From: Gallionella sp.
Lineage (GTDB): Bacteria > Pseudomonadota > Gammaproteobacteria > Burkholderiales > Gallionellaceae
Length of the DNA stretch: 64,000 nt
NCBI GenBank assembly: GCA_028714075.1
Contig: JAQTMZ010000005.1
Coordinates: 1-64,000 of the forward strand
Reading direction: 5' to 3'
Below, piece by piece: positions 53,163 through 59,761 of this stretch. The translations under genes and the position numbers were made by a program. Each line of letters opens with the position of its first letter. Position 1 is the stretch's first letter. Below the pieces are notes generated by a model, which was not told the origin of the DNA, did not search any database, and was given only the letters and a program-made list of their open reading frames with translations.

Positions 53163-53239
53163 AGGCGCGTAGCTCAGCTGGTTAGAGCACTTGGTCGACA
53201 TCCAAGGGGTCGTTGGTTCGAGTCCAATCGTGCCTACCA
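53163..53239 (+). tRNA. tRNA-Val (GAC), encoded CCA
   Basis: AGGCGCG/CGTGCCT acceptor, AGCTCAGCTGGTTAGAGC D arm, CTTGG-TCGACAT-CCAAG anticodon arm, GGTTCGAGTCC T arm, A-CCA. Confidence 0.95.
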
Positions 53240-57623: not shown

Positions 57624-58204
57624 AGGGTATGGATAACCAGTTTATTTTTACTACGTTAAGGATATTAATTTGAATGGCTACAGGACTAGGATAGATAACC
57701 AGAATGGATAACTAGAAATTAGATTGGGAAATTAATTGAATATATTAACCAAGATTTTATTGAAGAAAATTAATAGTTAATTCACTAATCAAAATTTGAT
57801 ATGTGTTATTGATTGGTATCTTGATTAGTGCTGGCCATACCAAGTTATGCGGAAATATGTGTTATTTCAATGTTTGATCTCATCACAATTGATACTGGGC
57901 AGTTCAAACTGTTGTATTGTCCATGCCAACGTCACGCACAAGAAAATCAAGCAAAAGCCACCTAACTAGCTACAATTAGTATTATCACTAGTCAGTTTTA
58001 CGCTGATTTTCGCTTGCAACCGCCCGGTTCTCGGCCTAAGCGGACTTTTCAGGACGTCCAAAATTACTTTCGTTTTATACGCCAGAGCAGCCGTAATGGA
58101 GCGTTGGTTGCGTCCGCTTTTGCTGTTAGTTATTATGCGGACAGAAATTTTTAACCCTTGGAAGATAAATGAAAATATGCGTATCGCCTACGATTGTGTG
58201 GTTA

Positions 58205-58236
58205 TTACTATACGGACAGGCCTGTCCGTATAGTAA
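58205..58236. promoter_or_regulatory. 32-bp perfect palindrome
   Basis: TTACTATACGGACAGG|CCTGTCCGTATAGTAA. Confidence 0.9.
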
Positions 58237-58269
58237 CTGTTGGGGCTCTTAGTCCCACGCTGCGAAACA

Positions 58270-58857
58270 ATGAATACGACTACAACGCAAGATACCGCTC
58301 TGGTGAATGCCATTTTGGATTTATGCAAGAAGTCCAAAACGGTAAACCATCTATCGTTGCCGCTTTCCCTTCGGAGCCAAAGCCACCTTCTGGATGGTCA
58401 GCCAATCGAGAACGATCCGACAACGTTTGCCGAGAAAGTCAGATCGAGAAACTTCTCCCGCTATTGTCTCGCGGTCATGGACTTTCTTGTGAGAGCAAAA
58501 CTCTGCTACTTAGTGCAAGAAGTAATCAACAACGGAATGTACCCTCAGGATGTCCAGTATCTTCGCATAACGCGTTTGGGTGCCGTCTATGCTTGTCTGC
58601 CACTAATTGCCCAGCGGGCGGTCATCTACTGCATCGACAAGGCATTCTGGATATCCAGTCTGGTCGCAAAGTACAAGTGGCTGGGCACGATCATATCTGG
58701 TGTGGTTGCCGGAGTCGGCTGGCTCCGCACTCACGATGTCTCAACCTACTTGGTGGCGCTCTCTGTGGCGGCTGGTATTGTTGCCATGTTTTTTGCCAAC
58801 TGGCTGCACGGCGGGCCTTCGACAGAAGGAGGTTCCTCTGATGACACATTGGCCTAG
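58270..58857 (+). CDS. Hypothetical protein with C-terminal membrane segments (integron cassette 1 ORF)
   Basis: MNTTTTQDTALVNAILDLCKKSK...WLGTIISGVVAGVGWL..YLVALSVAAGIVAMFFANWL; followed by an attC-like site. Confidence 0.7.
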   Translation: MNTTTTQDTALVNAILDLCKKSKTVNHLSLPLSLRSQSHLLDGQPIENDPTTFAEKVRSRNFSRYCLAVMDFLVRAKLCYLVQEVINNGMYPQDVQYLRITRLGAVYACLPLIAQRAVIYCIDKAFWISSLVAKYKWLGTIISGVVAGVGWLRTHDVSTYLVALSVAAGIVAMFFANWLHGGPSTEGGSSDDTLA

Positions 58858-58875
58858 TCACGTGAGAGCCGCGAG

Positions 58876-58941
58876 CCCCAACCCGGCAGTCGAGCGGACC
58901 TGCGCGAAAAGTCGCGCAGGCCGCTCACTTCCACGTTAGGA
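58876..58941 (+). other. Integron attC-like site 1
   Basis: CCCCAAC-CCGGCAGTC-GAGCGG-A-CCTGCGCGA-AAAG-TCGCGCAGG-CCGCTC-ACTTCCAC-GTTAGGA. Confidence 0.8.
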
Positions 58942-58947
58942 GTAAAA

Positions 58948-59358
58948 ATGCGCATCTCAGAAATTCTTAAAAAAGAAACGCCCTACGAAACTTTTACTTT
59001 TGAAGTTGATGGCTATGTCATTAGCATTTTTATACGCCGCGATGACCAAGTTACAATTCCACTAAACGAGGCAAAGCAAAAAGGCATTTCGTTAGGCGGG
59101 CAATACTCCGCCCTTCGTCACACGGTGCCAGAGCCAGGGAAAGAGCACATTCATGTATATGCTAAAGGCAATGATATTTTTGCGCTGAATAAAGATGGTA
59201 CGGCACATGACCAAAGTCACGGAGTAAAAATCCCTAACAGGGTTGCAGATGCCATCCGAACCCATTTCCCTAACTTCTCGCTGCCGCCCAACAATTTTAT
59301 TGAGTCCGCGCCAACTGCAATAGAACTCTCATACAAAATGCAGGTACTGGTGGGGTGA
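58948..59358 (+). CDS. Hypothetical protein (integron cassette 2 ORF)
   Basis: MRISEILKKETPYETFTFEVDGYVISIFIRRDDQVTIPLNEAKQKG; starts 7 nt after attC 1 and ends just before attC 2. Confidence 0.75.
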   Translation: MRISEILKKETPYETFTFEVDGYVISIFIRRDDQVTIPLNEAKQKGISLGGQYSALRHTVPEPGKEHIHVYAKGNDIFALNKDGTAHDQSHGVKIPNRVADAIRTHFPNFSLPPNNFIESAPTAIELSYKMQVLVG

Positions 59359-59367
59359 GCATGACAC

Positions 59368-59430
59368 TCCTAACCCTACGCTCAAGCGGGACTGCGCAAA
59401 AGCGCGCAGCCCCTTAGCTCCACGTTAAAT
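59368..59430 (+). other. Integron attC-like site 2
   Basis: TCCTAAC-CCTACG-CTCAAGCGGGA-CTGCGC-aaaagc-GCGCAG-CCCCTTAG-CTCCAC-GTTAAAT. Confidence 0.85.
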
Positions 59431-59761
59431 GTCTGGCATTGCCAAGTGCCGGAGCAAATTCTGAATGAGTCGGAAGGGCGGCTAAGGCCGAACAGTGTGC
59501 ATTATCGCGAGTCCCAAATTTCTGACTATCGATAACATCACTTATAGCTAAGTGATCTGCCTCTTTACCTAATACTTCAATCACCACCGGCTTCCGCCGA
59601 TGGTGAGTCAAAAGAATGCTTCTTGCCTGAAACCTATAGAATCCCTCGTTCGGTAAAGCTGAGCACCGATGCGCCCACCACGATGAAGTGGTCGAGTACA
59701 CGAACATCCACCAATGCCAAGTACAGTATCAACGGCATCACTGTCAGCCAAAATAGGATCG

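Follow-up and report, generated by a model that had tools for sequence, protein, structure and literature searches.

Clusters of attC sites that lack an integron-integrase are known as CALINs (IntegronFinder 2.0, PMC9024848). In Xanthomonas, CALINs occur outside the ilvD locus, and intI has been lost in part of the genus (PMC12444791). The insertion of cassettes at attG sites has been described as well (Loot et al., 2024, Nat Microbiol 9:228, as cited in PMC12901181 and PMC12690207). Here we analyzed a stretch of 64,000 nucleotides (the window) from Gallionella sp., an iron-oxidiser-type member of the Gallionellaceae. The window forms the beginning of contig C5 in a draft assembly (2.83 Mb, 27 contigs, completeness 100%). 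We are confident that it contains two integron gene cassettes clustered without an integrase, that is, a CALIN. The two-cassette array is a further example of this known element type and an unusually clear case. The features of the locus are as follows.

53163-53239, plus strand: tRNA-Val(gac), left end of the island carrying the array
58090-58239, plus strand: left-edge element, possibly a divergent relative of a module of about 150 bp at the 5' end of integrase-less Gallionellaceae arrays
58205-58236, no strand: perfect inverted repeat of 32 bp, separated by 3 bp from the cassette 1 cut to its right
58240-58935, plus strand: gene cassette 1, 696 bp, with the 5' end GTTGGGGCTC complementing its own R'' side at every base
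58270-58857, plus strand: ORF1, 195 aa, orphan, predicted to be helical with likely C-terminal transmembrane helices (judged by eye)
58876-58941, plus strand: attC site 1, with R'' CCCAAC, L'' GAGCGG-A, stem CCTGCGCGA/TCGCGCAGG, L' CCGCTC and R' CG|TTAGGA
between 58935 and 58936, plus strand: cut of attC site 1
58936-59424, plus strand: gene cassette 2, 489 bp, with the 5' end GTTAGGAGT complementing its own R'' side at every base
58948-59358, plus strand: ORF2, 136 aa, orphan
59368-59430, plus strand: attC site 2, with R'' CCTAAC, L'' AAGCGGGAC, L' GCCCCTTA and R' CG|TTAAAT
between 59424 and 59425, plus strand: cut of attC site 2
59640-59761, minus strand: frame-broken C-terminal remnant next to the yqaJ gene in the right flank (read directly from the letters)

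Both attC sites were scored with a covariance model built in this analysis (R1). The model was trained on 32 attC sites from arrays of relatives, none of them from the focal genome; the majority of these adjoin a true IntI, and their arms show covariation. As a positive control, R1 recovered the class 1 integron attC sites of blaOXA-2, aac(6')-Ib, blaOXA-1, blaGES-5, qacG2 and aadB with 25-61 bits. Full-length matches were obtained for site 1 (60.1 bits, E 7e-14) and site 2 (83.0 bits, E 4e-20), and the third-best match across the 64-kb window reached 12.2 bits, so that exactly two sites stand out. According to the R1 scoring, the boxes with the GTT core, the stem and the unpaired base are present in both sites, the starts of which are 492 bp apart. 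The bottom strand of site 1 folds more stably than the top strand (−28.0 versus −23.2 kcal/mol; z −6.7 versus shuffles), and the same holds by a small margin for site 2 (−14.2 versus −11.9 kcal/mol; z −2.6 versus shuffles). The two window sites are confirmed as true attC sites by sequence and structure. An earlier note on this DNA had read attC architecture at precisely these coordinates, and the covariance scoring and bottom-strand folding that it had proposed bear this reading out for both sites. A third candidate attC at 58005-58135 (GCGGAC...GTCCGC) was rejected, showing a weak fold and no match to the covariance model.

In the closed circular form of a cassette, its first bases are paired with the R'' box. 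The sequence GTTGGGGCTC at 58239-58248 is complementary to GAGCCCCAAC, the R'' side of the cassette 1 attC, in 10 of 10 positions, while the next candidate reaches 5. Cassette 1 therefore starts at 58240 and not at 58124, the left boundary given in the earlier note, which lies too far to the left. For cassette 2, GTTAGGAGT is complementary to the R'' side of its attC in 9 of 9 positions, and this start coincides with the site 1 cut. Both cassettes are thereby confirmed as complete, with exact ends. ORF1 begins 30 nt and ORF2 12 nt past the respective cut, both in the same direction as the attC sites, which is typical of cassette genes. The Shine-Dalgarno-like AGGAG of ORF2 is provided by the 5' end of its cassette, and an alternative TTG start at 58240 would extend ORF1 to 205 aa.

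Neither ORF1 nor ORF2 has a significant match in Pfam, NCBIfam, PADLOC, PHROGs, plasmids, 300 genomes of the order or viral contigs. For ORF2, nothing significant was found among phages and PDB sequences, or in a fold search with the predicted model. The structure models of ORF1 and ORF2 are poor (pLDDT 43 and 61, respectively). Given the lack of relatives and the low confidence of the models, we name no function for either protein. Both had been listed as unassigned before, and they are orphans in all collections searched; the accessory or defence function suggested at the same time found no support from Pfam through to the viral contigs. That they might be small accessory factors is a guess, extrapolated from the usual content of cassettes.

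An integron integrase was searched for with TIGR02249, applying a cut-off of 265 bits. No intI was found in the window or in the rest of the assembly: all TIGR02249 matches stayed far below the cut-off, and the best one, located on contig C26, is XerD. The absence of intI, first remarked for the window, is hereby extended to the entire draft assembly. A relic of intI near the array was not detected by tblastn either. The combination of intI and attI that marks a complete integron is not present at the array, which has at least two attC sites close together and no integron integrase nearby. Two attC sites and no IntI in the assembly make the array a CALIN. On C26 (1.8-2.7 kb, L001), a toxin-antitoxin-like pair lies at the xerD end and is followed by a duplicated C-terminal xerD fragment. 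This fragment was considered as a scrap of intI and discarded, since it is a copy of the xerD end that follows a small antitoxin-like gene.

The last 46 nt of tRNA-Val(gac) recur with two differences at 85.68 and 90.74 kb of the contig, beyond the window. One tyrosine-integrase-like gene (84.06-85.49 kb) stops immediately ahead of the first of these repeats, another follows the repeat, and predicted metal-resistance genes lie within the island at contig positions 65.8-75 kb, right of the window (all types read from sequence). The tRNA-Val repeats together with the tyrosine-integrase-like gene place the array inside an island of about 32 kb. With 0.43-0.53, the GC content of the DNA surrounding the array is below that of the left flank (0.51-0.62), and the island genes include yqaJ, sak and DUF932. 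The remnant in the right flank is one that we take to be RadC-like. No Rfam families were found around the array. The proposal of a CALIN within a mobile region is thus supported by R1, by the absence of IntI and by the tRNA-Val island. The 46-nt repeats and the two tyrosine-integrase-like genes belong to two tRNA-Val islands in tandem on contig C5 (53.2-90.7 kb), the first of which holds the putative metal-resistance genes.

The attC sites have close relatives elsewhere. Over 65 bp, site 1 shares 97% identity with an attC from the blaGES-5 class 1 integron on the Citrobacter freundii plasmid pTTHS031_GES (NZ_LC589514.1), and about 84% with the blaOXA-2 attC in a plasmid search that matched 656 plasmid records. 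It is nearly identical, then, to an attC of a clinical class 1 integron, and cassettes from such bacteria therefore use sites already present in resistance integrons. Across 58 bp, site 2 does not differ from an attC adjoining intI in the congener G013 (100% identity), and the attC sites adjoining intI in G007 and G019 show 97-98% identity to it. A 47-bp core of site 2 is found without mismatch in 64 stretches of public genomes. Most of these belong to Gallionellaceae and other Betaproteobacteria, Methylophilus rhizosphaerae CBMB127 and Sulfuricella sp. T08 being named strains among them; matches in further phyla are mostly in metagenome bins, where misbinning is possible.

The genome-wide search for intI and further attC sites, also proposed in the earlier note, yielded no IntI above the cut-off and five additional attC loci. 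With R1, the focal genome has attC sites at six loci: the window pair and those at C2 31-32 kb, C2 87-88 kb, C4 25-28 kb, C1 235-236 kb and C8 160 kb. An IntI above the cut-off is encoded in 18 of 40 congeners searched (15 of a set of 36 searched together, plus 3 of 4 additional genomes). Within the genus, the same attC type is found both in integrase-bearing integrons and scattered singly. In the congener G334, which is assembled into a single contig, 18 attC matches are spread over about ten chromosomal places, with no IntI encoded. Since the same scatter is seen in this single-contig genome, it is not an effect of assembly.

The first junctions of arrays were compared in a set of 75 rows, duplicates included. 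Many array starts, here called the first type, adjoin intI and terminate in a TACTTTACG|TT-like sequence; in a second type, the end is TAATAACTG|TT. Three Gallionellaceae loci, L201 (near 11.3 kb), L202 (near 7.4 kb) and L123 (1463-1593), have about 135-150 bp in common with 75-83% identity, ending exactly at the cut. These module copies lie at different chromosomal places, with no intI in the sequence fetched. The best match of a profile of the three copies to the window is the left edge of the array, where it ends exactly at 58239 (E 0.0038, last part of the module only). The similarity without the last 12 nt was equalled by 2 of 1000 shuffles. Pairing of the inverted repeat is largely kept across the four copies, two pairs being changed on both sides; the covariation score, calculated from four copies only, was reached by 23 of 500 shuffles. 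The apparent resemblance of the left edge to the integrase-less module is a lead, not a result. A pattern search of viral contigs did not detect the left module. L203 was dropped as an extra copy, its similarity not being significant against shuffles, and so was a conserved leader peptide in the module, the start codon of which is lost in L202 and the frame of which is shifted in the window (judged by eye). Array starts of other kinds were also seen. In two deltaproteobacterial bins (L137 at 4492 and L155 at 6540, minus), a common array start ends in TAAATATATAG|TT with no intI detected upstream, possibly representing a second integrase-less type. In a Zoogloea sp. bin (L114, near 98), the array start resembles attI1 of class 1 integrons.

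To form the array, an IntI that was once encoded in the lineage, or was supplied by another cell or element, would have used the bottom strand of each attC, in its folded form, as substrate. Recombination of each attC at G|TT would have placed the cassettes one after another at the present left junction, for which the candidates are a non-classical site in the genome (attG) and an attI-like platform. A DNA search of 60 relatives found no empty insertion site, only attC being matched and the flanks having no DNA match, so the insertion step itself is one that we infer. Without intI, the cassettes would now be fixed, incapable of self-excision and moved only together with the island; both attC sites should remain recognisable to any IntI that arrives.

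We give somewhat less than an even chance to insertion of the cassettes into a non-classical site (attG) by IntI acting in trans, as opposed to their being left by a local integron that lost its integrase. No trace of intI is present upstream of the array, the attC sites of congeners are equally scattered, those of the one-contig G334 included, and the joined site would read AACTG|TTAAATG, which contains the G|TT core. A diffuse attG would not be expected to have such a left junction, which is nonrandom and resembles a module of about 150 bp common to other genomes.

It is possible, and we lean against it, that the array began as a complete integron of the island, whose own attI formed the left edge, and that a later deletion removed intI. 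In favour are the likeness of the left edge to a conserved module that, as expected of an attI, stops precisely at the cassette cut, and the persistence of attI sites without intI elsewhere in the focal genome. At the C1 locus (235.0 kb, L162), an attI ending exactly at the cut is kept without intI and is 84-88% identical over 49 bp to attI sites adjoining intI. The C4 locus (28.5 kb, L077), directly behind smpB, has likewise kept an attI without intI (92% over 48 bp), together with a 26-bp block that in L133 lies within the 5' end of intI. The C2 87-kb array adjoins an ABC-transporter gene that flanks intI in G008 and G335. These three loci look like the remains of chromosomal integrons after loss of intI. 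At the window array, however, an intI remnant is missing upstream, and the module is beside intI in no copy seen. Among loci fetched regardless of intI, 11 of 12 with the first junction type, and none with the second, had a whole or fragmentary intI beside the junction, the two classes having been drawn up after the data were seen.

We regard it as unlikely that the left edge belongs to a family of orphan, portable attI-like platforms of about 150 bp, which would take up cassettes from an integrase supplied in trans. Each such module would carry a conserved inverted repeat and a TAATAACTG|TT-like terminus at the cut, and would sit in unrelated places in several Gallionellaceae genomes, away from intI. 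This integrase-less platform is the sole part of the analysis that could be new. If the left module is indeed an integrase-less insertion platform, it would help to explain the entry and expression of dispersed cassettes.

An integrase gene that exists in the strain and is merely missing from the assembly is improbable. The assembly consists of 27 contigs, and draft assemblies inflate CALIN counts (PMC9024848); on the other hand, its completeness is 100%, and the array lies deep within a 226-kb contig, in the first 155 kb of which no other attC was detected, showing that the array is not truncated by the contig end. Although similar hairpins are widespread across the genus, we see next to no chance that those in the window are ordinary intergenic repeats or terminators (the latter named in the earlier note as the refuting case) resembling attC by coincidence: R boxes, stem, extra base and cut all agree with attC, such sites form arrays opposite to intI at cassette spacing, the cassette starts complement the R'' of the same cassette, and the hairpins have no T-run on their 3' side and are absent from the terminator scan.

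This CALIN on a tRNA-Val island documents an environmental, genus-wide store of integron cassettes that are scattered, largely apart from any integrase, some of them riding an integrative island. Compared with CALINs as defined (PMC9024848), the array has two attC sites within 0.5 kb, cassette ORFs and no integrase nearby or in the assembly searched. It differs in lying on a tRNA-Val island and in the many scattered loci of the genus, which is a difference of setting and not of kind. The Xanthomonas CALINs (PMC12444791) are likewise integrase-less arrays at other loci in a genus that has partly lost intI; theirs are at fairly conserved positions, whereas the one described here is on an integrative island. 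With the attG insertions of Loot et al. (2024), as the citing papers report them, the array has in common that cassettes are found at scattered places away from intI. Its left side, in contrast, resembles a recurrent module, and a role of attG here is putative. The blaGES-5 class 1 integron of pTTHS031_GES contains the near-identical counterpart of site 1, but its cassette holds other small ORFs and the DNA similarity ends at the attC. The chromosomal integrons of Gallionellaceae and other Betaproteobacteria (G005, G007, G013, G019, Sulfuricella sp. T08) have the same attC family, with identity of up to 100% over 58 bp, but possess IntI and mostly another type of left site.
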